Part shown: positions 1,984 through 18,994 of the stretch, in pieces
Layout of the letters: each line of letters starts with the position of its first letter
Numbering within the stretch: position 1 is the stretch's first letter
Virus record (IMG/VR): IMGVR_UViG_3300042343_001610
Coordinates: 1 to 23,301 of that record
Reading direction: 5' to 3' (one strand)
DNA from: a virus
DNA: 23,301 nt
Position numbers and translations under genes: made by a program
Notes under the pieces: model-generated
What the model was told of the DNA's origin: nothing
The model's input: only the letters and a program-made list of their open reading frames with translations
Databases searched by the model: none

Positions 1984-4023
1984 ATGGCATCATCAGAAAC
2001 TTCGTATACAGTTAAGTATACTGATCCAGGTAAAGGTGCTATTACAGTTAATGATAACTTACTTGATAAAACTACTTCACTTACGTTTGTAGGTAGAAAT
2101 AAATCGATGTATGCGCAATACATTGCAGAAAATTTTTTACATTTATTAGAAAATTTTGCAAGATCAACTGAACCTGGTGCTGAATTAAATGAAGCATCAC
2201 CGATAACTGGGCAATTATGGTACGACACAACTGCTAATATTGATATACTTAAAGTATTTAACGGATCTAAATTTGTTCCAGTAAGTGCTATAAACAAAGA
2301 TATATCTGCGCCACCTACTGCAAGTAGTCGTGCAGGTGATCTGTGGGTTAATGCATCTACAAAACAACTTTATATATATTCGGGCAATACTGGTAATACT
2401 GCAGGATCGTGGAATTTAATTGGACCTCAGTTTAGTAGCGGGTTAAACACCGGTCCGTTATCTGAAACAATGATTGACGATGCAGGCGATAGTCGTTCTA
2501 TATTGTCATTTTATGCAAACAATGACCGAATTGCAATCATTAGTACTGGCAGTTTTATTCCAAAAGTAACAACATTTGGCTTTGCAACAATTAATCGCGG
2601 AATAACATTATCTTCAGAAACAAACAATGTAAATGATGCTATTAAATTATGGGGGAATGCAAGTTCTGCAGATAGTTTAGTGTATAAAGGAACAACTGTT
2701 CCTGCAGTTAATTTTATGAGAACAGATATTACTACTGAGGCAACGTCGATTAATGTTAAATCTAACGACGGTATTAGCATGGGTAGTGATTTAAGTTTTA
2801 AAATTACTACATCAGATACCGATGTTAAATTAACTTCAAAAACTGGTAAAAATATTAAAGTTAATTTTTCTTCTGACAGTGGTGTTACTAGTAATTTAGT
2901 AATTACTGCATCGTCAGTAGGAATTGGCCAAGGTAACACTGCTCCTCAGGCAACATTAGATGTATTAGGTTCTGCATTAATCAGTCAAACATTGTCAGTA
3001 ACTGGCACAACTGACTCAACTTCGTTAACTTCTGGAAGTATTATTACTGCTGGTGGATTAGGAGTTACAAAAAACTCTAATTTTGGAGGAACATCTACAT
3101 TTAATAATACTCTGTATGTTTATAGATCAACCGCAGGCCCTGTGCTAATTCCAAAATACTCACCTAATCAACCTATTGAAGATCGACCACTTTATGATAT
3201 CGGTTCGCAGACATTACCATTTAGAAATGTGTATGCAACTAAATTTGTTGGTGATTTTGATGGTACACATACTGGAACATTTACCGGAAGTATTTCTGGT
3301 ACTGCATCAAGTTTAACTGATTCTAGATCGTTTCGTTTAGACGGTGATGTAGTTGCAGAACCACAATTTTTTAATGGTACAAGTAATGTTAGGTTAGCAA
3401 CCACTATAACTTCGGCATTAATTAGTTCAAAAAACGCTGCGTCTGAATCATTTAGTTCTGATCAGTTATTGATACAACGTGGTAGTGTAGGGTTGTTACG
3501 TATTCGAAAAGATGATTTCTTAAGAGAAGTAGCAACAGTTCCAATTGGCGTAATCATGCCATATGCGGGCGAAACCCTGCCCACAGGATATTTACTTTGT
3601 GACGGCTCTGAGGTATCTACTATTACATATAATAAGTTATATAATGTGATTGGTGACAATTATCGTAATGTTTCTTTATTAAAAGGTGCTAATACATTTG
3701 CACTTCCTGATTTAAGAGGACGGTTTCCGTTAGGTCGTGATAGCATGACTAATGATTTGCCGGATGTAACAAAAGGAAATTCTACATTTAACGCTGGCGG
3801 CAATCGGAACGGTCTTAATAGTGATAGCACAGCAGCTGCAAGACGAGTACATGATTCTGCAGCATCAACTATAGGGTTTGGTGCTGGAAATGATGCAGCA
3901 GGAACATTAGCACCTGCAGGAACACCGGGATCTGAAATGTCATCAGTAGTGTCTAATAAAGCATCATCAATTATGAATCCATATCAAACAATTAATTACA
4001 TTATTTTTACAGGTATAGTATAA
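1984..4023 (+). CDS. Tail fibre protein with N-terminal fibre module and C-terminal phage tail collar domain (679 aa)
   Basis: Residues about 31-83 form a module (L-T-x-x-G-x-N-x-x-x-Y ... E-N-x-x-x-L-L-E-N-F-A ... G-Q-L-W-Y-D-T) that recurs at the N-terminus of the next two proteins. A long Thr/Ser/Gly-rich beta region follows, including a D-I-G-S-x-x-x-P-F-R-N-V-Y-A-T-x-F-x-G segment typical of fibre shafts. Residues about 518-600 are a phage tail collar domain: I-G-x-I-M-P-Y-A-G, P-x-G-Y-L-L-C-D-G, then L-P-D-L-R-G-R-F-P-L-G-R-D, ending in the Y-Q-T-I-N-Y-I-I tail. The protein probably trimerises in the tail apparatus and contributes to host recognition. The ATG at 1984 has an AGGAG ribosome site 7 nt upstream. 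The gene overlaps the next start by one base (TAATG). Confidence 0.85.
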   Translation: MASSETSYTVKYTDPGKGAITVNDNLLDKTTSLTFVGRNKSMYAQYIAENFLHLLENFARSTEPGAELNEASPITGQLWYDTTANIDILKVFNGSKFVPVSAINKDISAPPTASSRAGDLWVNASTKQLYIYSGNTGNTAGSWNLIGPQFSSGLNTGPLSETMIDDAGDSRSILSFYANNDRIAIISTGSFIPKVTTFGFATINRGITLSSETNNVNDAIKLWGNASSADSLVYKGTTVPAVNFMRTDITTEATSINVKSNDGISMGSDLSFKITTSDTDVKLTSKTGKNIKVNFSSDSGVTSNLVITASSVGIGQGNTAPQATLDVLGSALISQTLSVTGTTDSTSLTSGSIITAGGLGVTKNSNFGGTSTFNNTLYVYRSTAGPVLIPKYSPNQPIEDRPLYDIGSQTLPFRNVYATKFVGDFDGTHTGTFTGSISGTASSLTDSRSFRLDGDVVAEPQFFNGTSNVRLATTITSALISSKNAASESFSSDQLLIQRGSVGLLRIRKDDFLREVATVPIGVIMPYAGETLPTGYLLCDGSEVSTITYNKLYNVIGDNYRNVSLLKGANTFALPDLRGRFPLGRDSMTNDLPDVTKGNSTFNAGGNRNGLNSDSTAAARRVHDSAASTIGFGAGNDAAGTLAPAGTPGSEMSSVVSNKASSIMNPYQTINYIIFTGIV

Positions 4024-4940
4024 TGAGTTACATTATAAACAAAACAGATGGTACACGGTTAACTGAAATTATTGACGGTAGTGTTGATCAAATAGCAAGC
4101 GAGTTAACATTAATTGGTAAAAGTGCTAGCTCCTACGGTGAACATTTAAATGAAAATTTAGTGCATATGTTGGAGAATTTTGCTAACGCTACTGCGCCTA
4201 CTAAGTCTATTGTAGGGCAGTTGTGGTTTGACACAATCGAAAGTCGATTGAAAGTATATGATGGATCTGGGTATAAAATTACAGGCGGTACTATTGTATC
4301 AGATACGCATCCTAGTTCGTTGTCTCAGGGTGACATCTGGATTAATAATGCAACTCACCAACTGTACTTTAATGACGGAACCCAAGTAGTACTAGCAGGA
4401 CCAGATACTCCTGAAGTTAACGGATTTTTAATAGTTAGCCAAACTTCAGATACTCAAGATACATATGAAATTATTAAAATTACTGTTCAAAGTCAGCTTT
4501 TTGGTGTTATTAGCAATGTTGCATTTAATGTAGACGTAAACAACCCAATTCCTGATTTTGATAGTTTACGAGTCGAAGCAGGATTAAATCTAGTGTCTCC
4601 GTCAAAGATTACAAATGTTGATACATCGTCAGAAGACTTAGATGCTGTTAATAATGTAAGGCTACTAACTGCTATAAAACAAAAAGCACCATACGGAATT
4701 TCGTTAGATATTTCAAGTATGCCTCCCGGAACAGATACTGATCAGAATTATAAAATCGGTGTATTATTGGGTAAAATATTTCCAATCGACGACTTTAAAG
4801 ATAATACAGGAGAAGATTCTCCAATATGTAGAGTGTTGTGTACAAAAAACGGCAACAGGTCCGTTAGAACGTTCCAGTTAGGGTCTGATACAACGGACGG
4901 GTGGTTTAACACTTACACCGAAGATGTAACTTGGAATTAA
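4023..4940 (+). CDS. Tail fibre-like protein sharing the N-terminal module (305 aa)
   Basis: Residues about 27-71 repeat the module of the preceding gene: E-L-T-L-I-G-K, E-N-L-V-H-M-L-E-N-F-A and G-Q-L-W-F-D-T. A second shared segment follows, G-D-I-W-I-N-N-A-T-x-Q-L-Y-F (about residues 103-116). The remaining 190 residues are different: no collar domain and no fibre-shaft repeats are visible, and a short M-P-P-G-T-D-T-D stretch lies near residue 234. It is the shortest of three tandem paralogs and may be an adaptor or short fibre. Its start overlaps the upstream stop as TAATG, which suggests coupled translation and matched amounts. Confidence 0.75.
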   Translation: MSYIINKTDGTRLTEIIDGSVDQIASELTLIGKSASSYGEHLNENLVHMLENFANATAPTKSIVGQLWFDTIESRLKVYDGSGYKITGGTIVSDTHPSSLSQGDIWINNATHQLYFNDGTQVVLAGPDTPEVNGFLIVSQTSDTQDTYEIIKITVQSQLFGVISNVAFNVDVNNPIPDFDSLRVEAGLNLVSPSKITNVDTSSEDLDAVNNVRLLTAIKQKAPYGISLDISSMPPGTDTDQNYKIGVLLGKIFPIDDFKDNTGEDSPICRVLCTKNGNRSVRTFQLGSDTTDGWFNTYTEDVTWN

Positions 4941-4946
4941 TAAATA
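4939..4946 (+). promoter_or_regulatory. T4-type late promoter candidate (AATAAATA)
   Basis: The octamer fits NATAAATA and overlaps the stop codon of the 305-aa gene, 24 nt before the ATG at 4971. An AAGGA ribosome site lies between them. It would allow the 506-aa fibre gene and the giant gene to be transcribed separately from the coupled genes upstream. Confidence 0.45.
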
Positions 4947-4970
4947 TATAAAAATAAGGAAATATACAAG

Positions 4971-6514: not shown

Positions 6515-9500
6515 ATGACAATTACATTAGATCAATCAGGCTATAACATTATCTGGAATCGTATTAAAAGAATATACGAAGAAGGAGACGGTGATTACGG
6601 CTATGGACAACAACTAACTAGTATTGAGTTAGGCGCCGGAGCTGCTGCAGAACAGGCACGGTTTACCGAGTTAAGAGCTGACATTTTAGCAGCTAGATAT
6701 CATCAAATTGGAGTTCAAACAACTGCTCCAATTCCGGCAACTCAATCAATAATTTCGTCAGCTGACTGGGCAAAATGGGAAACTACGTTAATACAAGTAG
6801 AAAATAATAGAATGTTAACCCCGCCATCAACACAAGCAATTCGTGCTAATTTAGCAGCACCGTCAATTATGGATGTGTGGAATGGGTTAACAGCATTTAC
6901 TACAGACGTTACATTTGATAGTGCAGATGCAATGAGACACTACTTTAACACAGGTAGTACCATTGAATTTACATCAACACGCACTGGCGGTAGTACTGCT
7001 AAGAAAAATACATCATGGACTTCGTTTTTAACAACTTGCGGTACGGTTAGTTTTAAACGCAATGCAACTACCTCAACTAAAACATCTGGTACAAATATTG
7101 GTTATAGCCAATTAACAGACAGTGATCAGATTATATATCGAAAAATAGTAACTGATGCATTTAAACCAGATTCGTATACAATTAAAGCTAGATTATCAGA
7201 AGAAACTGTAATTACATTTACTGTTGAATTTGATGATATCATCACTGGCGCAACTGATGCTAACGTTGACGGTGTGTTAACAACTACTATTAACGCATAT
7301 CATGCATCTGGCATATATGTTAGTGTTCCGGCACCAATTGCTTCAGCTGACACTCTTCCGGGAGATCCAAATCCAGTATTTACAATCGCACGTGATGTAT
7401 CTAGAATTGACGAAGGGTTATCTAGTGTAACATTTTCAGTTAGTGCTATAAATTTCTCAGGTGATACAGTATATTGGAGAGCCGTTGGTTCTGGTATTAA
7501 TGCATCGGATTTTGTTGAAAACACACTAGGGGAAAGTTTGTTACTTGTTGATAATACTGGAACATTCTCGTTAACTGCTGCTGCAGATTCATTTACTGAA
7601 GGCACTGAAAAATTTAATATTGAAATTCGTGTTGCACCAGAATTAACTAGTCCTGTAGTTGCATTAATAACATCAGAACAAATTACTGATTTGTCATTAA
7701 CTATACCGGTTGTTATTGTTACTCCGTCTTATGACTTTGTGGCTCAAACGGTTAGTTCTGTAGCAGAAGGCCAATCTGTAACATACACAATTGTTACTAC
7801 CGGTGTACCCGATGGTACTGATTTAATATGGTCAACTATCGTGTTAACTCCTGGATTAACTGCTGACGATTTTGATGATAAAACATTATCAGGTACTGTT
7901 ACAATTAACAGCAATACTGCAACGCTTACTAGAACACTAGTTGATGATAGTGCAGTAGAAAAACTAGAATCATACCAAATTTCATTATCAACTGTTAATC
8001 CAACTACTGGTATAAAAAAAGTTGTAAAAACAAGTTATTTAATGCAGGTTGTTGATACAGTTGTAGTAATTCCAGAAATTCCTTATACAGTAGTAACCGG
8101 TGCAACAACTACCTCTGTTGCAGAAGGCAGTAAAGCTGGAATAATTTTTAAAATTAACACACCAAAATTACCTGTAAACACTAGAGTATGGTGGAACACT
8201 GTTGTTGATACTGGAACAATTACTGCATCTGATTTCACTGATAATGCAATGTCCGGTTCTGTTGTAATTTCAAACCAAACAGGTTCTGTTACTCGATATG
8301 CAAAATCTGATAGTCTTATAGAAGGCACAGAACAATTTCATTTAGTGTTCTATGCTGATTCATTAATGACAACAGAATTAGTAACTAGTGATATTGTTGT
8401 ATCAATTACTGAAACTGTAAATTATGTAATTACAAGAAATCCAGTATCTATGGTAGAAGATGGGTTAGGGGTTGTATTTACTGTTAACACACCGTGGACA
8501 GAAGACGGTACCGTATTGTACTGGACAACTGTTTCAGAATCAGGTACAGTTGACGAACTAGATTTTGCTGATAACACACTTACTGGTACTGTTACAATTA
8601 GTGGTAACACTGGTACTATTCTTAGACGTGCAGTAAAAGATACGCTTACTGAAGGTATTGAACAATTTCATTTAGAAATTCGTGCAACAGACGGCATTGG
8701 CGGACCATTATTAGTTTCAAGTCAAAGTACTACTATTACTGAAAATGTTTTATATGAAATCAATACACTTGGCTCAGAAATTTCTGAAGGGTTAATTGGT
8801 GTAGATTTTGTTGTTACTACTCCAAAATTACCAGCTGGTACAGTGTTATATTGGTCAACAGTAACTGATACTGGCACAATTATTGCATCTGATTTTACTG
8901 ATAACAAAATGTCTGGTACTGTTGTTATTACTAACAACACTGGTACTATTACTAGAACTGCTGCAGATGACGCGTTAACAGAAGGTATTGAATCATTTCA
9001 TCTTATATTAAAAACTGGTTCTGCATCTGGCACACAAGTAGCTGTAAGTAGTATTGTAACTATTTCGGAATTTGTAAAATATAAAATTACTCCATCAACC
9101 CAATCAGTATCTGAAGGCCAATCTGGTGCAACCTTTAACATTACTACTCCTAAAGTAGCAAATGGTACTGTTGTATACTGGACTGCATTAGGTCATACAG
9201 GTAATATTACAGGTGATGATTTTGTAGTTTCAGATGCGCAAGGCGGCTCTGCTCAACGTGTATCTGGACAGGTTACTATTCAAAATAATCGTGGTTCGTT
9301 TATTATTACTGCTAGAGCTGATTCGTTAACAGAAGGTTCTGAATCATTCCAAATTGAATTAAGATCAGACGGTATCGATGGTCCTGTTTTAGATACTACT
9401 GGACTTGTTGCATTAAATGAAATTGTACCATATCAAATTATTGCAGGTGCTGCTACTGTTGCAGAAGGTACAGGCAGTGTGTCGTTTACTGTTAAAACTC

Positions 9501-12500
9501 CAGTTAATGCATCTACATTTGACGGTGCTGAATTGTTCTGGACTACACGTACTATGTCTGGTACTATAGCTGCAACTGATTTTACTGACGAAGTATTACA
9601 AGGTACTGTTGAAATTAACGGTAACGTTGGTACTATTATTAGAACTGCTGCTGCTGATAAATTTACTGATGGTGTTGACGCGTTTGCTATCGAACTTAGA
9701 CTTACCGGTTATGGTAGTCCAGTGTTAGTTACTAGTAATGTTGTTGTTATTCAAGATTTATCTACAACAGTAGCTGTTCCGGATCCTATGCAACCAGTGT
9801 ACACTGTAACTTCAGATACTACTGCAATTTTAGAAGGAGGTTCGGTTGTATTTACAATTGCAACAGACTATGTACTTCCAACTGCTAATTTATATTGGAC
9901 ATTGTTTAGAGGTCCTGGATTAGAAATTACAGATTTGTCATCAATACAAAGTCCGTCAGCATTTCATGTAGAGATGAATGGAGGCGGTGCGTATAATGAA
10001 GAAACTAACTACGAAGGTACTGCAACTGTTACAGTTACTGCACCTGTTGACGTACTGTCTGAAGGCACCGAATCGTTTATATTCCAATTACGTACTGGCT
10101 CGTTGTTTGGACCAGTTGTAGCAACAAGCCCGGGTGCTATTACAGTTTCTGATCAAGCATCTTATGCAGTTTCTGCATCAGTTCGTTCTATATCAGAAGT
10201 TGACGAAGGTGGTGCAGGTGTAACATTTACAGTAACTACTCCACAAAGTGCTATTGGTACAGCGTTAACATGGACGATTGTTCCTGTTACAGGCAATATT
10301 ACTGCTCTAGATTTTGTAAGTGAATCATTAACTGGTACACTTTCAACTAACGGGACTATTACTAGAACATTTTCAGTAGTGGCAGTTGCCGATGCTGCAA
10401 CTGAAGGTAATGAATCTTTCCGCATTGCACTTTCAGACAGTACTGGTGCAATTGCATTAGGTACAGCTGCTCCAGTTGTTACAATTTCAGAAATTGTAGC
10501 TTACTCATTAACTTCGTCAGTAACATCTGTAACAGAAGGCGGAAGTGTTGTTTATACATTAACTACACCAAAACTTAAAGCTGATGCATTGTTAAAATGG
10601 ACAGTTGTTAGTAAAACTGGTAATTTAACCGGTGCTGATTTTACACCGCAACTATTAACTGGTACATTTACTGCATCTTCATCGACAAACACTGGAACAT
10701 TTACTGTTGTTACTAGAGCTGATTCAGCAACTGAAGGTGATGAGTCGTTTACTATTGATTTATCTGTTGCAGCAACTGGACAATCTATTACATTAGGAAC
10801 TCCTTGTTTACCTGTAACAATTACTGAAACTGTGTCGTATGTAATTACAACGCCATCACTATCAGTAGCAGAAGGCAGTGCAGTAACGTTTAATATTGCT
10901 ACACCAATGTTAAACGACAACACTGTATTGTATTGGGAAGTAGTATCACTTTCTGGAACAGTAAACGCAGATGATTTTGTTGAAAATAAAGTTAACGGAC
11001 CTGTTACTATTGTTAATAATGCTGGACAAGTTGTTGTTACACTTAAAGATGATAAAGTTACTGAAGGTAACGAATCATTTAAAATTCAGTTAAGAGAAGG
11101 GTCTGCACAAGGTAGTACAATTGATGCATCGTGTCCAACGGTAACGGTTACTGAAACAGTTGGGTATTCAGTTACTTCTCCAACATCTGCAGTTGTTGAA
11201 GGCGGATCGATAACATTTAATATTACTACACCAAAAGTTGATGACGGCACTGTTATAAAATGGACTGTTGTTTCGGTTACTGGATCAGTAGTGGTAGGCG
11301 ATTTTAGTCCATCAGGGTTAACTGGAACTACTACTGTAACAAGCAATGCAGCAACGGTTACATTAACATTAGCAGCTGATGCATCAGTAGAAAACACTGA
11401 TACATTTACTATTTCATTAAAGAACGCAGATGATTCGGCTATTACGTTAGTATCTCCTGCACCGGTTATTACTATATCTGATAGTACTGATTATTCAGTA
11501 ACTGCAAACAAAGCATCAATTATTGAAGGTGATACAACTGGTGTTACATTCACAGTAACTACTCCAGGTACATCAAAAGAAAAATCATTGTACTGGTCAT
11601 TAGAAAGTGTTTCTGGTAATGCAATTGCAACTGACTTTGTTGCATTTACTGGAACTGTTACTATTGTTGGACGTGTAGGAACAGTTACTGTAAAAGCAAA
11701 ATCTGATACAGAACTTGCTGAAGGTGATTCATTTAGACTTGTATTAAGAACTAAATCGCAAACTGGTACACCAGTTACAATAACTCCAAATGCAGTAGTT
11801 AATGTTTATGATACAGAGTTCTGCACTATTACATCAAATGTAACAGCAATTGATGAAGGCGGCACCGGTGTAACATTTACAATTAACACACTTACTTCAG
11901 ATAACGGTCAAAAATTGTTTTGGAAAGTTGTTGGTTCTAAAGCTAGTGCATCATCATCTCCTGCTTCTGGTATAAATGCAGCTGATTTTACAACAATGGC
12001 ATTAACTGGTCAAACTAGCACAGTAGCAAATAAAACAACAACTATATCATTTACTGCTGCTGCTGATTTACAAACTGATCCAGGTGAAACGTTTTACCTA
12101 GAAGTAGCTAGATCATTAAACGGTACTCCAATTGTATTTTCTACAGCATGTCCTAAAATTACAATTAATGATAAATCGGCTACTGAAAAAGTAGTAAGTA
12201 AAACAATTGATATAACATGTACACATTCAAGTCTTATAGCCGAAGGTAACAATGGAGTGTTTAATATTGTAATACTACCAACAGGAAAAGCAGTTGACAT
12301 TAATTGGGAAGTTGTTAAAACTACACCAGCTTCTATTCAAAGTGCAATATCATTAACAAAAGGCGGTAATTTAGCTAGTAAAGGTACTATTAAAACAACC
12401 TGGACCGAAGCTAATCCAACTGTTGCAACTGGCGAATTAAGATTATGGATTAATACGTTAGGAACAAGTGCAAGTGGAAGTTTCCAAATAACATTTACGG

Positions 12501-14191
12501 TAATAGATCCAGTTACACAAAATCCTGTAAGTATTACGTCGTCTGCAGTTAATGTACTTCACCCGCCAGTCACAGAAACAATAACAGGTGTGTCTCAAAC
12601 ATGGACTCCGAAAGTTGCCGGTGCTTCGACAATCTCTATATCATTGCAAGGCGGCGGCGGCGCAGGCGGCGGCGCAGGCGGATCATTTAACGGCGGCGAC
12701 GGCGGCGATGCCGGTGCAGTTGAAGGAACGATTGATTTTACATCATTAAAATCGTTATACTTTGATTTTATGCCTGGCGGCAGTTCATCGGCAGTTACTC
12801 TTGATTGGACAGGATTATGCGGATCAGGTGGTAGTGGTATTGCAGTATATTCTAAAAAAGGTGCAGCAGCTCCATTTGCATCAGTTGGGGGTGCTGGTGG
12901 CGGTGGTGCTGGTTGGATAAATGGTACAGATCCAGGTGGCAAAGGTTCAGCTCCTACTATTGAATCAGTATGGACTAAGGCATGTGCAACAGCAGGCATA
13001 GCATCAAAACAATCAAACGGCGGAGGCGGCGGTGGCGGCAGTGTTGCAGTTGTACAACCAGTTGGTAAGTACGTTGCAAACAATAATGTTGCAGGCAACG
13101 CATATTCAAGGATTGGCGGCAACGGTGGTAAATCGTTTGTACCTGCAGACTGGAGTTATGTAGTAGCAGGTGGTGGTATAGGCGGAGAAGGTTCTAAATT
13201 AATAACTAGACAACCACAAAACGGTGATTATCCAAGCAGCGGTTACGGTGCTAACAAAAAACTAATTGCTAGCCAATTTAAAAACTATTGTATTGGACCA
13301 GATAATCAAACAACACGCAAAGATGATACTATATATGTTACATATTTTGATGTAAAAAGTCTAGTTAGAGTTGAAAAATCTGCAGGACAGTTTATAGAAG
13401 TTGGACAATCGTTGCCAGAAGGTGATTATTGGTTAAATATTTATACTGACGGTACTGGTGCTGTAATGATCAATGACAAATTCTATAACGGTACAAAACT
13501 TACAGATTTTAAAGTTTCATTACAAGCCGGTTGGAATAACAGAATTTCTGTATATTATCAATATAAATCAAACGCAAATAAAACATTTGGTATTTCTGCT
13601 ACGTTACGCCCGTTCTTCAAAACTATGGAATCAGCTTCGGCATTTGTTTGGACTACTAGATCTCCTGGTGCAATGATGAAACCGCAAGCAGGATCAGGTG
13701 CAGCTGGCACACCAGCAAAAGCTGTATTAACATATACACCGGGTAACGTTATTGCTGGACAAGTAGTACCGCCAATACCAAGACCGGTAGTAGTATCAAC
13801 TGCAAAATATGTACCACCATCTTATGATATAGTAACGTATAATACAACGAATATACCAACTTGGTGGTGGGTTGTAAATGTTAAGTCTACTCCAGAAGCA
13901 ACAATGCTTTGGGAAGACTTATATATACCAGTAGACACTACTACAAAAATTAATTATATGGCTGACGATCAAGGATGGATTAAACTGTATAATGCAGCAG
14001 GCGATACACAAGTAATGAATAATTCGGCACATAACTTATGGGTATTTATTGATACTAAGCTAGGCGTAATTACTAAAATTGAAGCATATTATAAAGATAC
14101 AGGCGGTGGCCCGTATGGTGCTCGAGGTGTAATTTATAGCAATAACGCATACGTTTGGACTACACGTGATCCGGCTCGTCATTATAGATAG
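6515..14191 (+). CDS. Giant fibre/adhesin: phage N-terminal domain, about 15 Calx-beta-like repeats, Gly-rich domain, two C-terminal modules (2558 aa)
   Basis: Residues 1-275 are a domain I recognise from virion proteins of marine T4-like phages: G-D-Y-G-Y-G-Q near residue 28, a helical L-R-x-D-I-x-x-A-R-x-H-Q segment, R-H-Y-F-N-T-G with S-x-R-T-G-G, and Y-x-Q-L-T-D-S-D-Q. This part probably anchors the protein to the virion. Residues about 286-2018 are tandem beta-sandwich repeats of the Calx-beta type. Residues 2019 to about 2260 are glycine-rich, opening with T-W-T-P-K-V-A-G like Gly-rich phage adhesin domains. The rest holds two related modules, each ending in (F/Y)-V-W-T-T-R-(S/D)-P. The ATG has an AAGGAATAAG ribosome site upstream. 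The unbroken 7.7-kb frame argues for function. The likely role is a long fibre with a receptor-binding tip at the C-terminus; that assignment is inference from domain order. Confidence 0.85.
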   Translation: MTITLDQSGYNIIWNRIKRIYEEGDGDYGYGQQLTSIELGAGAAAEQARFTELRADILAARYHQIGVQTTAPIPATQSIISSADWAKWETTLIQVENNRMLTPPSTQAIRANLAAPSIMDVWNGLTAFTTDVTFDSADAMRHYFNTGSTIEFTSTRTGGSTAKKNTSWTSFLTTCGTVSFKRNATTSTKTSGTNIGYSQLTDSDQIIYRKIVTDAFKPDSYTIKARLSEETVITFTVEFDDIITGATDANVDGVLTTTINAYHASGIYVSVPAPIASADTLPGDPNPVFTIARDVSRIDEGLSSVTFSVSAINFSGDTVYWRAVGSGINASDFVENTLGESLLLVDNTGTFSLTAAADSFTEGTEKFNIEIRVAPELTSPVVALITSEQITDLSLTIPVVIVTPSYDFVAQTVSSVAEGQSVTYTIVTTGVPDGTDLIWSTIVLTPGLTADDFDDKTLSGTVTINSNTATLTRTLVDDSAVEKLESYQISLSTVNPTTGIKKVVKTSYLMQVVDTVVVIPEIPYTVVTGATTTSVAEGSKAGIIFKINTPKLPVNTRVWWNTVVDTGTITASDFTDNAMSGSVVISNQTGSVTRYAKSDSLIEGTEQFHLVFYADSLMTTELVTSDIVVSITETVNYVITRNPVSMVEDGLGVVFTVNTPWTEDGTVLYWTTVSESGTVDELDFADNTLTGTVTISGNTGTILRRAVKDTLTEGIEQFHLEIRATDGIGGPLLVSSQSTTITENVLYEINTLGSEISEGLIGVDFVVTTPKLPAGTVLYWSTVTDTGTIIASDFTDNKMSGTVVITNNTGTITRTAADDALTEGIESFHLILKTGSASGTQVAVSSIVTISEFVKYKITPSTQSVSEGQSGATFNITTPKVANGTVVYWTALGHTGNITGDDFVVSDAQGGSAQRVSGQVTIQNNRGSFIITARADSLTEGSESFQIELRSDGIDGPVLDTTGLVALNEIVPYQIIAGAATVAEGTGSVSFTVKTPVNASTFDGAELFWTTRTMSGTIAATDFTDEVLQGTVEINGNVGTIIRTAAADKFTDGVDAFAIELRLTGYGSPVLVTSNVVVIQDLSTTVAVPDPMQPVYTVTSDTTAILEGGSVVFTIATDYVLPTANLYWTLFRGPGLEITDLSSIQSPSAFHVEMNGGGAYNEETNYEGTATVTVTAPVDVLSEGTESFIFQLRTGSLFGPVVATSPGAITVSDQASYAVSASVRSISEVDEGGAGVTFTVTTPQSAIGTALTWTIVPVTGNITALDFVSESLTGTLSTNGTITRTFSVVAVADAATEGNESFRIALSDSTGAIALGTAAPVVTISEIVAYSLTSSVTSVTEGGSVVYTLTTPKLKADALLKWTVVSKTGNLTGADFTPQLLTGTFTASSSTNTGTFTVVTRADSATEGDESFTIDLSVAATGQSITLGTPCLPVTITETVSYVITTPSLSVAEGSAVTFNIATPMLNDNTVLYWEVVSLSGTVNADDFVENKVNGPVTIVNNAGQVVVTLKDDKVTEGNESFKIQLREGSAQGSTIDASCPTVTVTETVGYSVTSPTSAVVEGGSITFNITTPKVDDGTVIKWTVVSVTGSVVVGDFSPSGLTGTTTVTSNAATVTLTLAADASVENTDTFTISLKNADDSAITLVSPAPVITISDSTDYSVTANKASIIEGDTTGVTFTVTTPGTSKEKSLYWSLESVSGNAIATDFVAFTGTVTIVGRVGTVTVKAKSDTELAEGDSFRLVLRTKSQTGTPVTITPNAVVNVYDTEFCTITSNVTAIDEGGTGVTFTINTLTSDNGQKLFWKVVGSKASASSSPASGINAADFTTMALTGQTSTVANKTTTISFTAAADLQTDPGETFYLEVARSLNGTPIVFSTACPKITINDKSATEKVVSKTIDITCTHSSLIAEGNNGVFNIVILPTGKAVDINWEVVKTTPASIQSAISLTKGGNLASKGTIKTTWTEANPTVATGELRLWINTLGTSASGSFQITFTVIDPVTQNPVSITSSAVNVLHPPVTETITGVSQTWTPKVAGASTISISLQGGGGAGGGAGGSFNGGDGGDAGAVEGTIDFTSLKSLYFDFMPGGSSSAVTLDWTGLCGSGGSGIAVYSKKGAAAPFASVGGAGGGGAGWINGTDPGGKGSAPTIESVWTKACATAGIASKQSNGGGGGGGSVAVVQPVGKYVANNNVAGNAYSRIGGNGGKSFVPADWSYVVAGGGIGGEGSKLITRQPQNGDYPSSGYGANKKLIASQFKNYCIGPDNQTTRKDDTIYVTYFDVKSLVRVEKSAGQFIEVGQSLPEGDYWLNIYTDGTGAVMINDKFYNGTKLTDFKVSLQAGWNNRISVYYQYKSNANKTFGISATLRPFFKTMESASAFVWTTRSPGAMMKPQAGSGAAGTPAKAVLTYTPGNVIAGQVVPPIPRPVVVSTAKYVPPSYDIVTYNTTNIPTWWWVVNVKSTPEATMLWEDLYIPVDTTTKINYMADDQGWIKLYNAAGDTQVMNNSAHNLWVFIDTKLGVITKIEAYYKDTGGGPYGARGVIYSNNAYVWTTRDPARHYR
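7370..12568 (+). repeat. Tandem Calx-beta-like domain repeats inside the giant adhesin
   Basis: About 15 units of 109-126 residues lie head to tail. The consensus is Y-x-I/V-T ... S-V-x-E-G-x-x-V-x-F-x-I-x-T-P ... G-T-x-L-Y-W-T-x-V-x-x-x-G-x-I-x-x-x-D-F ... L-x-G-T-V-x-I ... T-x-T-R-x-A-x-A-D-x-x-T-E-G-x-E-S-F-x-I-x-L-R. The acidic D-x-x-T-E-G-x-E turn fits the calcium-binding edge of Calx-beta domains. Approximate unit starts (nt) are 7370, 7727, 8084, 8422, 8749, 9076, 9427, 9796, 10159, 10498, 10834, 11161, 11488, 11818 and 12196. The last unit is degenerate and lacks the T-E-G-x-E turn. At the DNA level the units have diverged, so this is an old expansion. Confidence 0.8.
12650..12712 (+). 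repeat. GGC-rich low-complexity tract coding for polyglycine
   Basis: GGC and GCA codons alternate with few interruptions and give runs such as GGGGAGGGAGG, followed by G-G-D-G-G-D-A-G. The tract stands out as strongly GC-rich within AT-rich DNA. Further Gly runs occur near 12886-12915 and 13018-13040. The domain context matches glycine-rich phage adhesin domains. Confidence 0.7.
13370..14173 (+). other. Two related C-terminal modules of the giant adhesin (candidate receptor-binding domains)
   Basis: Module 1 (13370-13666, residues 2286-2384) and module 2 (13823-14173, residues 2437-2553) share an order of motifs: an aromatic-rich strand, a T/A-D-x-x-G segment leading to N-x-x-x-Y-N-G or L-Y-N-A-A-G, a strand ending in I-x-x-Y-Y, a short G-rich loop, and a closing (F/Y)-V-W-T-T-R-(S/D)-P. 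The pattern suggests a duplicated PA14- or lectin-like beta-sandwich, but the fold is inferred by eye only. Module 2 carries a W-W-W run. Confidence 0.5.
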
Positions 14192-14218
14192 TAGTTAGTA
14201 AAAAGTAGTATAAATGAT

Positions 14219-14240
14219 AAAGCCGGCAATTGCCGGCTTT
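14219..14240. terminator. Bidirectional intrinsic terminator between convergent genes
   Basis: A perfect palindrome (core AGCCGGCAATTGCCGGCT with flanking A/T pairs) lies between the stop of the giant gene and the stop of the convergent ThyX gene. Each strand has T residues after the GC-rich stem, so it can end transcription in both directions. With the AATT centre as loop it forms an 8-9 bp stem. Confidence 0.85.
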
Positions 14241-14247
14241 GTTGTGA

Positions 14248-15015
14248 TTAGTGTTTGTAAAAATTAAAAAAGTGTTGATGCCATTTAAGTTTTTTAGGTT
14301 CAACAATTTCTTCTTTAATAGGTTCTAAAACTGGTTCTTCCTTGTAAACAAAGTCATGTACCATTGGAAATACTGCGCTAATTGCTTGCGCACATGCTAC
14401 AGCAACTTGTTTGTGTTCAAGCTGTGTATCCACGTTACTGCGCACTTGTATGTAGTGAATCCATGAGCGCAACGTCCCGTTAACATACACACGACTTTTA
14501 GTATTGCCTTCTGGAAGAACAACACGAGCTTGTTCTTTAGCAATCCCGTTGCTAATTGCCCATTCATATTGTGCTTTTGCTGAATTAATATGAGCTTCTT
14601 GTCTTAGATGCCATTCGTCATTAATCGCCTCTTCTTCTGCAGTATTAATTGTAATTGAATTTTGACGATTTTTAGGATCTTGAAATCTAGCATCGCGTAT
14701 TTCAAAAGACAGATCGTTTGTTGGATCTGCATAGCGTTGACTAAACTCTTGGAATCTAAATGAAGCGTGACGTAGTAATTGACGTGCAATATCGCGGGTG
14801 GTATTTACTTCTAAACACACATTAACCATTTCAAGTGGTGACCAATGTTTATGTTTAATTAGGTAGTTGATAAGTTTTTCTGAAGTTTCTGTATTAAACT
14901 GATTTGAAGGATTACTTACTCTAGCACAAAATGCTATAAGTTCTTGTGCATCAGTAATTCCTAACTCAGCAAATTCTTCAGTAGGTTGAGAATATGATAC
15001 TAATTTAATGTTCAT
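14248..15015 (-). CDS. thyX: Flavin-dependent thymidylate synthase ThyX (255 aa)
   Basis: ThyX methylates dUMP to dTMP using methylene-tetrahydrofolate, FAD and NADPH, and supplies thymidine for phage DNA. The signature region reads R82-H83-A84-S-F-R-F-Q-E-F-S92-Q-R94-Y95, matching RHRx7SxRY except for Ala at the third position. Upstream, H-W-S-P-L-E (58-62 region) and T-T-R-D-I-A-R-Q are typical. Downstream, L-P-E-G, G-T-L-R-S-W-I-H-Y and Q-x-E-H-K-x-V-A complete the fold. The last 30 residues are a charged Glu/Pro/Lys tail beyond the usual domain. The ATG overlaps the upstream stop as ATGA. The gene ends just before the palindromic terminator and is the last of its operon. Confidence 0.95.
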   Translation of the reverse strand: MNIKLVSYSQPTEEFAELGITDAQELIAFCARVSNPSNQFNTETSEKLINYLIKHKHWSPLEMVNVCLEVNTTRDIARQLLRHASFRFQEFSQRYADPTNDLSFEIRDARFQDPKNRQNSITINTAEEEAINDEWHLRQEAHINSAKAQYEWAISNGIAKEQARVVLPEGNTKSRVYVNGTLRSWIHYIQVRSNVDTQLEHKQVAVACAQAISAVFPMVHDFVYKEEPVLEPIKEEIVEPKKLKWHQHFFNFYKH

Positions 15016-16240: not shown

Positions 16241-16528
16241 TTATCTTGAGTTTAAATCTGGACATGCAATTGTGAAAAAGCTAAGTTCCTTTTCTGACTC
16301 AAAACCAATTGTAATGTTATAGATTATAGAATTAGACGAATCTAATGAAATTCCTTTATCTATGTAGTATCGATTATTTAAATTTTTTGTAATCCAAGTA
16401 TCAATAGATCTGATTAATTCTGGATTAAATCTATTAATAGTAAAGTATTTAAAATGCGGGCAGGCAAAGCCTACCCTACGCATATTAAAGTAATTTAATG
16501 GATTTGGTTTTCCATTTTTTAACGCCAT
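16241..16528 (-). CDS. Hypothetical phage protein (95 aa)
   Basis: The ATG at 16528 shares one base with the stop of the VWA gene (TAATG), which suggests coupled translation. The protein has a C-P-H-F segment near residue 23, several aromatic residues, an R-S-I-D-T-W-I-T-K-N-L helix and a beta-rich C-terminus with F-F-T-I-A-C-P. No known domain is recognised. The two C-P dipeptides are not in a metal-site arrangement. Confidence 0.6.
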   Translation of the reverse strand: MALKNGKPNPLNYFNMRRVGFACPHFKYFTINRFNPELIRSIDTWITKNLNNRYYIDKGISLDSSNSIIYNITIGFESEKELSFFTIACPDLNSR

Positions 16529-17709
16529 TACGCAGCTTCCTTAGCAAATTCGTAGTAAGCAAACTCACCCCATGGAGGAACAATTTTGTCATTACCATGA
16601 ATAATAAACACTGTGTCGCAATACCCTTCGTCACCCCAACTACCAAATGGATAACCGTCTGTAAACATAATAAACTTTTTAGGTTGAATATCATGTTCTT
16701 TCATGTAATCCCAGTTTGCATCAAACTCTGTACCACCACCGCCTTTTGGCTGATATTCATCAAACTCTGTAATAGTATAAGCGTTATAATCAGCTTCGTT
16801 ATACACTTGCGTATCAAAGCACCATAGTTTAATGTTAAAATCTTGATACTCTTGCATAATACCTTTGATCTCACTTAAAAAATCTCTAGCTTGATCATCG
16901 CCAATTGAGCCAGACATATCAATTGCAACGCAAATATCAATTGTTTCGTCATAGTTAGTACCTGGCAAAATAGCGTTCATGTGCCAACCTTTTCTGTTAG
17001 GCCGCATAAAAGAAAAGTCATTTTTAATAGTACTTTGAATTTGCTGACGTAAAATTTCACGCCAGTTCATTTTAGGTTCAGTAAGCTCTTTAATCATACG
17101 TGAAACACTAGCTGGCGTATTGCCGGCACCTGCAGCTTGTGCAGCAGCCATAGTAGCCTCACGTATCTCATCACGAATCTTTTTTAGTTCGTCTTTAGTA
17201 TACTGAGGACGACCGCTACCGTTAGGATTACTTTCCCAATCAATGTGTTCATCAAGCATTTGACCTAATTTGCTAAGTGAATCTTCATCAAACTCATCCA
17301 TTAGTTTGTCATAAATTTCTTCAGAACCCATACCGTAATAATCTGGATTATGAAAGATTTTAATAGCAGGAGGTGGTTCGCCAATTTTATCACGAACCAT
17401 TTGACCATTAACATTATAGTCACATGCAATGTTAAAGATTTTAGGATTACGACCATCTCTACGTGACATATGATCAAACACGTTATGGAGAATCTCATGG
17501 CCAATAACAAATTCAATTTGTTTTACAGTTAATGGTTCAAAAAAATCACGATTATAAAAAATAGAACGGCCGTCAGTTGCTGCAGTTGGACACCAATCTG
17601 ATCCGTCTACAATTTTTAAACGTGTAGCCATATTACCAAAAAATGGATGGCGTAACAATAATCCTACGCGAGCTACAATAATTTTATCAACAATTGAATC
17701 TAGAGCCAT
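16528..17709 (-). CDS. Putative metallopeptidase-fold protein with C-terminal VWA domain, partner of the MoxR ATPase (393 aa)
   Basis: The N-terminal half is of the predicted metal-dependent peptidase type (DUF2201 family): H71-E-I-L-H75 gives a zinc-binding HExxH, followed by N-x-A-x-D-Y-x-V-N (93-101). The C-terminal part is a VWA domain with a complete MIDAS: D264-M-S-G-S-I-G, Thr328 in G-G-G-G-T-E-F, and Asp351 in F-T-D-G. A helical, Ala/Gln-rich linker lies around 170-210. In cells, VWA proteins of this kind work with MoxR AAA+ ATPases on protein or metal-cofactor maturation; the ATPase gene is immediately upstream. The ATG at 17709 has AAGGA upstream, and a consensus promoter lies in the preceding gap. 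Whether the peptidase site is active is not known. Confidence 0.88.
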   Translation of the reverse strand: MALDSIVDKIIVARVGLLLRHPFFGNMATRLKIVDGSDWCPTAATDGRSIFYNRDFFEPLTVKQIEFVIGHEILHNVFDHMSRRDGRNPKIFNIACDYNVNGQMVRDKIGEPPPAIKIFHNPDYYGMGSEEIYDKLMDEFDEDSLSKLGQMLDEHIDWESNPNGSGRPQYTKDELKKIRDEIREATMAAAQAAGAGNTPASVSRMIKELTEPKMNWREILRQQIQSTIKNDFSFMRPNRKGWHMNAILPGTNYDETIDICVAIDMSGSIGDDQARDFLSEIKGIMQEYQDFNIKLWCFDTQVYNEADYNAYTITEFDEYQPKGGGGTEFDANWDYMKEHDIQPKKFIMFTDGYPFGSWGDEGYCDTVFIIHGNDKIVPPWGEFAYYEFAKEAA

Positions 17710-17742
17710 AAATAAATCCTTAAAAAGTTATAATAAGTGTAA

Positions 17743-17771
17743 AGTATAACACCGCCTTGCGGCGGTGTCAA
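17743..17771 (-). promoter_or_regulatory. Sigma70-type promoter with palindrome filling the spacer, upstream of the VWA gene
   Basis: On the minus strand TTGACA (17771-17766) is followed by a 17-nt spacer and TATACT (17748-17743), 11 of 12 consensus matches. Transcription would start near 17736, giving a leader of about 26 nt with an AAGGA ribosome site. The spacer and the edge of the -35 box form a perfect 8-bp inverted repeat, ACACCGCC / GGCGGTGT, around GCAA (17749-17768). As DNA it could be an operator; as RNA read through from the MoxR gene it would be a stable GNRA tetraloop hairpin. No T-run follows, so it is not a good intrinsic terminator. Confidence 0.7.
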
Positions 17772-17782
17772 CTGTTTTGATA

Positions 17783-18874
17783 TTACTGACCGCTTGCTGC
17801 GTTAATATATTTGCCATACTTACGATGGAAATCGTCAAAACATTCAATTTCATCTGGCTCTAATGGTAACTTGTATTGGCATAATGCAAGTTTAGTACCC
17901 ATAATTGCAATCTCTGTTTCAAAATTGTTCATCATAAATAAGAAGTAGTTGTTAACTTGATCATTCCAGTTAGGCACTTTTTTACTAGCAGCCTCTTTTA
18001 ACTCGTAGCATAAGCTAATAGTTAATGAGTACATTGCCGAAATCTCTTTAGTTTCACATTTTGTAATTTTACCGTCAAGTACTGCGCGTGGATCAGGCAA
18101 TTTACTTGCAAACTGTCTATGTGCCATAAACTTAATACCAAGTCCTTCACCAATTGAACCTGCAACTAAGTCAGCTAATGTGTCAGCGTCAACATCGTTG
18201 TCTTCAATTAATTCACTTACAAAGCTCCATGAGCGCGGAGTAGCAAATGCACGTGAACTTGATTTAGTATCAAATGTATATAAGTCCTGTTTGCTTGCTG
18301 TTAAGAAGCCAACTACATCTGGATGAATGTTGTTTTCTGTAGCCCAGTCAAAGTAATCATCCCAGTCAACAGCCATTTCTAAATGCACAAATCTGTTAGC
18401 AAGTGGAGCTGGCATGCGATAAGTAACACCTTTGTCTGTTTCTCTGTTACCAGCAGCAACAATTACAACATTTTCTGGCAATTCATATTGACCAACACGA
18501 CGATTTAAAATAAGCTGATAAGCAGCAGCTTGGACACTAGGTGCAGCAGAATTCATCTCATCTAAAAACAAAATGATGCTTTTGTGTTTTGCAGCAAACG
18601 CTTTGCTAGGAAGTTCTGAAGGCGGAGCCCATACCATTGTTTGGTCTACTGAATCAAAGTATGGAATACCTTTAATATCTGTTGGTTCCCATAAACTTAA
18701 TCGCACGTCAATTACATGTGCAGTTAACTCACTACCTAATTGTTTAATAATATCAGATTTACCAATGCCTGGAGGACCCCAAATAAAGATTGGACGTTTG
18801 CTGTTAAACGCTTTACGTAAGCATTTTTTAGCATTTCTAGGACCGACTGTACGTGAAGTGATTTCGTTGCTCAT
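17783..18874 (-). CDS. MoxR-type AAA+ ATPase (363 aa)
   Basis: Numbered from the ATG at 18874, it shows Walker A G33-P-P-G-I-G-K-S40, Walker B I-L-F-L-D-E-M-N (101-108), sensor 1 A-G-N (141-143) and N160-R161-F as the arginine-finger region. The layout, with the R-L-S-L-W-E-P-T-D-I-K-G segment between Walker A and B, fits MoxR/RavA-type AAA+ proteins. These act as chaperone-like remodelling ATPases with a VWA partner, encoded next downstream. The start at 18874 is chosen because GAGGA stands 9 nt before it; the in-frame ATG at 18889 lacks a ribosome site. A perfect-consensus promoter lies about 95 nt upstream. Known phage roles are not established. Confidence 0.88.
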   Translation of the reverse strand: MSNEITSRTVGPRNAKKCLRKAFNSKRPIFIWGPPGIGKSDIIKQLGSELTAHVIDVRLSLWEPTDIKGIPYFDSVDQTMVWAPPSELPSKAFAAKHKSIILFLDEMNSAAPSVQAAAYQLILNRRVGQYELPENVVIVAAGNRETDKGVTYRMPAPLANRFVHLEMAVDWDDYFDWATENNIHPDVVGFLTASKQDLYTFDTKSSSRAFATPRSWSFVSELIEDNDVDADTLADLVAGSIGEGLGIKFMAHRQFASKLPDPRAVLDGKITKCETKEISAMYSLTISLCYELKEAASKKVPNWNDQVNNYFLFMMNNFETEIAIMGTKLALCQYKLPLEPDEIECFDDFHRKYGKYINAASGQ

Positions 18875-18957
18875 AGTGTAATTCCTCATAGTGAGTTAAA
18901 AAATAAAGTTAAATATAATAAGTAAGCATTTTGTAAATGTTGCGTTGCTAACTAACT

Positions 18958-18994
18958 ATGCTGCATATTATACAGCATTTTTAATTAATGTCAA
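18958..18994 (-). promoter_or_regulatory. Perfect sigma70 promoter with inverted repeat across the -10 box, upstream of the MoxR gene
   Basis: On the minus strand TTGACA (18994-18989), 16-nt spacer, TATAAT (18972-18967): 12 of 12 consensus bases. The start site would be near 18960, giving a leader of about 85 nt. The arms ATGCTG and CAGCAT (18978-18973 and 18963-18958) flank the -10 box symmetrically and cover the expected start site, an operator-like layout. The region lies in the only gap over 100 nt in the minus-strand block (18875-19001); nothing else was seen in it. Confidence 0.8.

Follow-up and report, generated by a model that had tools for sequence, protein, structure and literature searches.

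The junction between a MoxR-type AAA ATPase gene and the VWA gene that follows it on a 23.3-kb viral fragment (23,301 nucleotides, hereafter the window) contains a 29-bp element that is probably composite: a hairpin that would act on MoxR transcripts as an intrinsic terminator or attenuator lies within the spacer of a sigma70 promoter for VWA. On the minus strand, positions 17771–17743 read TTGACA CCGCCGCAAGGCGGTGT TATACT with a spacer of 17 bp and 11 of the 12 sigma70 consensus letters, and the wider reading between the MoxR stop and the VWA start is CAG TTGACA CCGCCGCAAGGCGGTGT TATACT TTACACTT. The original prediction of a sigma70-type promoter with a GCAA-capped 8-bp dyad before VWA was found as claimed, and the promoter is present in 79 of 80 related loci. 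The simplest reading of it, which that prediction had not named, is an intrinsic terminator inside a promoter. The features of the region, all on the minus strand, are as follows.

18967–18994, minus: promoter of MoxR, TTGACA-16-TATAAT, hairpin-free (sequence; kept in relatives).
17783–18889, minus: MoxR-type AAA ATPase gene, upstream, whose transcript would carry the hairpin; like N4 gp24 (Pfam, PHROG 1297).
17766–17771, minus: −35 box of the VWA promoter, TTGACA, whose ACA doubles as the base of the hairpin stem (invariant in 35/35 distinct aligned elements, partly by construction).
17749–17768, minus: nested hairpin ACACCGCC-GCAA-GGCGGTGT, the proposed MoxR terminator or attenuator in the promoter spacer (fold, conservation, covariation, score +10.9).
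17743–17748, minus: −10 box TATACT, with TG before it at 17751–17750 (extended −10); relatives have TATAAT, TATACT or TAAACT.
17734–17748, minus: tail UAUACUUUACACUUA, an imperfect U-tract that is also the −10 box and start region (sequence; terminator score; CGUUUUUA in locus L029).
17717–17721, minus: AAGGA, the likely ribosome-binding site of VWA, downstream of the expected start (sequence).
16528–17709, minus: VWA gene with a DUF2201_N putative metallopeptidase domain and a DUF2201 VWA-like domain; like N4 gp25 (Pfam, PHROG 1314, isolates).

The palindrome at 17768–17749 forms a perfect 8-bp stem with a GCAA cap, and two further pairs (G-U and U-A) can extend the stem into the −35 and −10 boxes. 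The ACA of the −35 box provides 3 of the 20 palindrome bases, and the TGT ending the palindrome supplies the TG of the extended −10. The hairpin is GC-rich (GC in 6 of 8 pairs, −15.1 kcal/mol), and the 101-nt region around it folds at −26.2 kcal/mol with a z score of −3.2. It starts 14 nt past the MoxR stop codon (17783–17785) and ends about 40 nt short of the VWA ATG (17709). The terminator scan listed the palindrome as terminator-like on both strands, and the Rfam search of the window gave no match. A hairpin directly past a stop codon with a U-containing tail is, by its anatomy, a predicted intrinsic terminator. Among the promoter candidates in the 15 kb scanned, that of VWA ranked second, next to the perfect MoxR promoter at 18994–18967, and these two were the only matches to TTGACA-N16-18-TATAMT in the window. 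The VWA transcript would be expected to start near 17736. We infer termination and initiation at this junction, with their strengths and timing, from sequence.

The family of the VWA gene is called “HNH endonuclease” in PHROGs and in many public records, a label that looks wrong given the DUF2201_N and DUF2201 VWA-like domains assigned by Pfam. Elsewhere in the window, a strong hairpin, AAAGCCGGCAATTGCCGGCTTT, lies at 14214–14245 between the convergent ends of a giant gene (6515–14191, plus strand) and a ThyX-like gene (14248–15015, minus strand), and it looks like a terminator with its best tail on the plus strand. The giant gene is an ORF of 2558 aa in which Pfam finds several Calx-beta-type domains (PF03160); a stretch rich in glycine lies close to its end, and its product is probably a giant surface or tail protein.

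In the proposed mechanism, the polymerase arriving from MoxR would, just past the stop codon, make a strong tetraloop hairpin and then a tail of moderate U content, where it would terminate or be attenuated. The same DNA would serve as the sigma70 promoter of VWA, with the base of the 5′ arm as −35, the end of the 3′ arm as TG and the tail as −10. A transcript initiated at this promoter would start downstream of the hairpin and would thus be free of it. With a hairpin stop and a promoter of its own, VWA would be insulated from MoxR and its level would be set mainly by its own promoter. The two genes look insulated because of the terminator-like anatomy, the terminators at the same junction in cultured phages and a separate MoxR promoter with 10–12 consensus matches, which was found in all 65 testable loci; the separate control of the two partner genes proposed originally is supported by this. 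It is conceivable, though we consider it unlikely, that the nesting is itself regulatory. As MoxR termination and VWA initiation share the same 29 bp, a polymerase at the promoter and one coming from MoxR would be mutually exclusive, and the rate of MoxR transcription would directly set the frequency of VWA starts. If so, selection would be keeping the overlap and not merely the two signals.

The conservation of the composite element was examined in 80 viral loci obtained by a search with the VWA protein (73–100% identity). In 78 of them, TTGACA-17-TATAAT, TATACT or TAAACT stands immediately before VWA with an 8-bp stem and a 4-nt loop in the spacer (one stem has 7 pairs). The 79th, L030, has the element 17–20 nt behind MoxR, and there an inserted gene of 155 aa separates the element from VWA. 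A chance origin of the element is excluded by its conservation before VWA in these 78 loci and behind MoxR in L030. In the last locus, L029, both promoter boxes are gone and a GAAA-capped hairpin remains, followed by CGTTTTTA, in which a U-run has been gained. Thus, the hairpin is found behind MoxR in 80/80 loci and the promoter in 79/80, and the distance from the MoxR stop to the hairpin start has a median of 19 nt (range 4–20) in the loci where MoxR is visible. Relatives keeping the gene pair were checked for a loss of the palindrome and both boxes, which would speak against the original prediction, and the element was kept in 79 of the 80. When the palindrome was sought in related phages, as had been suggested, the exact 20-mer was found in 20 viral contigs, every time at the MoxR-VWA junction. 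Exchange could be reflected in the insertion in L030 and in the outer stem pairs, which changed 13 times or more on the protein tree, but gene order is otherwise conserved.

The strength of the putative terminator was estimated with a score of the d'Aubenton Carafa type. The window element scored +10.9 and L029 +24, and 37 distinct elements gave a median of +1.9, with 78% above zero and 22% below. The tract following the hairpin in the window, UAUACUUUA, is of moderate U content, and relatives with TATAAT are weaker. These weak U-tracts and modest scores speak against the terminator, and they would be expected if the tail has to double as the −10 box. The hairpin might instead protect the 3′ end of the MoxR mRNA or mark a cleavage site without being the main terminator. 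This role in RNA stability or processing is improbable in our view. It would suit a strong tetraloop hairpin with a weak U-tract in many members and it shares all the RNA-level evidence with the terminator, but L029, which lacks the promoter, has a better U-tract, and terminators with U-tracts stand at the junction in most cultured phages.

MoxR stands directly before VWA in 12 cultured phages, and a terminator-like hairpin was found in the gap of nine of these, namely Phosso, Atu_ph07, CBB, RaK2, XbC2, Munch, Sharanji, SNUABM_19 and APECc02 (the last with a weak tail), and the submitters of Munch had annotated a terminator at this junction. No clear terminator was seen at the MoxR-VWA junction of phi30-3, Vibrio phage 2.275 and N4, which counts against the terminator. 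In N4, the homologous pair gp24-gp25 also has no clear nested promoter between the genes. In Sinorhizobium phage Phosso, MoxR appears terminated and VWA separately started as in the window, but the terminator and promoter stand side by side over about 150 nt, whereas the window element fits both in 29 nt. CBB, XbC2, RaK2, Munch, Sharanji, SNUABM_19 and Atu_ph07 likewise have a hairpin and U-tract right behind MoxR, but as plain intrinsic terminators outside any consensus promoter. When cultured phages were searched by BLAST with a 43-nt version, most matches were weak or partial; the best was Aeromonas phage Ahp1_CNU-2021, with the same hairpin and a poor −10 (TATTGT).

As an operator, which was one of the original suggestions, the palindrome would be bound by a dimeric repressor that blocks the VWA promoter. 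In favour of this, operators are classically placed between the −35 and −10 boxes, and the dyad is nearly perfect in every member. The stem was analysed in an alignment of 35 distinct 29-mer elements. Because these had been collected by promoter pattern, the invariance of the promoter in the alignment is partly by construction while the stem pairing is not; the raw upstream sequences of the loci show the promoter directly. Paired cells made up 99.7% of the 35 elements as compared with 82.7% when the 3′ letters were shuffled and 38–53% when the partner was slid. Changes on both sides were observed in 59 cells against 22 expected, and the covariation score was 0.394 versus 0.094. Four stem pairs show changes on both sides, with a flip between CC/GG and GG/CC in half of the types, and the five invariant pairs also belong to the promoter boxes. 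The 70-protein VWA tree implies a minimum of 21 changes in the five variable stem letters and a minimum of 13 in the outer two pairs. The stems of L023–L102 shift by double or quadruple substitutions and broken-pair intermediates are nearly absent, for which templated palindrome correction or exchange between phages could account.

The VWA set has YNMG loops (UUCG, UGCG, UACG, UCCG, UUAG and others), two types with UUUG, and GNRA loops, the latter being GCAA in the window and GAAA in L029. The strand preference of the loops was tested free of any stem requirement by scanning the viral collection for TTGACA-N5-loop-N5-TGTTATAMT. Among the matches listed, full 8/8 stems were found at 53 of 118 distinct sites with YNMG loops and at 8 of 115 with the reverse-complement loops, and 7 of these 8 hairpins have loops common to both sets. 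With Watson-Crick pairs only, the counts among the matches listed were 50/118 for YNMG and 3/99 for its reverse complement. The GNRA loops gave 5/115 among the matches listed, against 0/114 for their reverse complement (p 0.06). Many of the 53 YNMG sites are the same VWA junction and so are not independent origins. On the strand that is read from MoxR into VWA, the preference is for tetraloops predicted to be stable in RNA. The RNA under selection must come from MoxR, because transcripts begun at the VWA promoter would start downstream of the hairpin. This agrees with the earlier suggestion of a GNRA-capped hairpin on the MoxR mRNA, which should lower read-through into VWA.

The operator is not supported by these results, as the stem varies and the loops are RNA-typical on one strand, neither of which a DNA-binding dimer would need. 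The compensated changes leave the half-site recognition sequence unconserved; in addition, similar elements with other stems precede unrelated genes in other phages, and the hairpin of L029 outlives the loss of the promoter. We therefore regard the operator as very unlikely. A DNA hairpin promoter, cruciform or single-stranded and read by a phage RNA polymerase like the N4 virion RNA polymerase, would explain a hairpin at a promoter and has the gene pair in common with N4, but the invariant sigma70 boxes at 17-bp spacing, the RNA-type loops and the free variation of the stem sequence speak against it, and we consider it extremely unlikely.

The proposed nesting of a terminator in a promoter has a counterpart in the PeSLs, whose stem-loops reportedly terminate transcription. 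Each genome reportedly has a number of similar PeSLs within its hyperplastic regions, where they mediate recombination and gene shuffling. PeSL stands for promoter-early stem-loop, an element of T4-like phages such as RB49 and phi1 (Arbiol et al. 2010; Comeau et al.). Titles cited in PMC4503421 and PMC5348500 use the name “composite conserved promoter-terminator motifs”. Our scan of RB49 found 11 nested elements with at least 10 promoter matches, for example TTGACAGGGGATCGGTGATCCCCTATAAT, as compared with 0.6 hairpins expected by chance over all 596 promoter-like sites with shuffled spacers. These have the same nesting and match the published PeSLs, so the kind is already known. The window element shares with them a strong sigma70-like promoter (11/12 plus TG) with a GC-rich stem-loop inside its 17-bp spacer. 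RB49 has about 11 similar copies with 6–8 bp stems and 3–5 nt loops, whereas the window element has a 4-nt loop throughout its relatives, compensated divergence, a stem base belonging to the −35 box, and one copy per genome at one fixed junction. Copy number was judged on a 372-kb relative, which has one strong-promoter, GC-rich nested element, as does the window; further copies were not found in either. Being single-copy and orthologous across the lineage, the element was filed as a PeSL-like variant and not as a mobile repeated cassette; by sequence comparison, it is a single-copy, vertically conserved, covarying form of PeSL-like nesting.

Little or no excess of nested hairpins was seen in the scan of T4 and KVP40 (3 and 0; expected 0.75 and 1.45). 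In T4 (AF158101), minus-strand positions 2457–2429, which lie between gene 60 and rIIA.1, resemble a promoter and enclose a 7-bp hairpin, TACCACA-AGGA-TGTGGTA; this may be a lone PeSL-like site. In other viral contigs, the nested design of the window element was found before genes that, read from sequence and not from family search, encode a gp44-like clamp loader (L159, L223), a gp32-like protein (L209), MoxR itself (L202), a lipoprotein-like product (L155, L175, L197) and unknown products (L192, L204). On the viral contig L518, two promoters with differing nested GNRA-loop hairpins (3911–3939 and 4922–4950) are separated by about 1 kb, resembling the multi-copy layout of RB49. A host-derived element was considered and rejected: when 84,980 genomes of bacteria and archaea were scanned for YNCG versions with a GC centre, there were 21 sites and no clear case, the two that reach 8/8 pairs both needing G-U pairs.

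These findings together provide comparative, sequence-level evidence that a consensus promoter can retain a terminator within it over long evolutionary times, with one set of 20 bases serving both the folding of one RNA and the promoter geometry of the following transcript. They would extend the idea of PeSLs beyond the repeated cassettes of T4-like phages, to one junction that is fixed in large phages as well as to junctions of other genes, and the element would represent a ready-made 29-bp insulator design.
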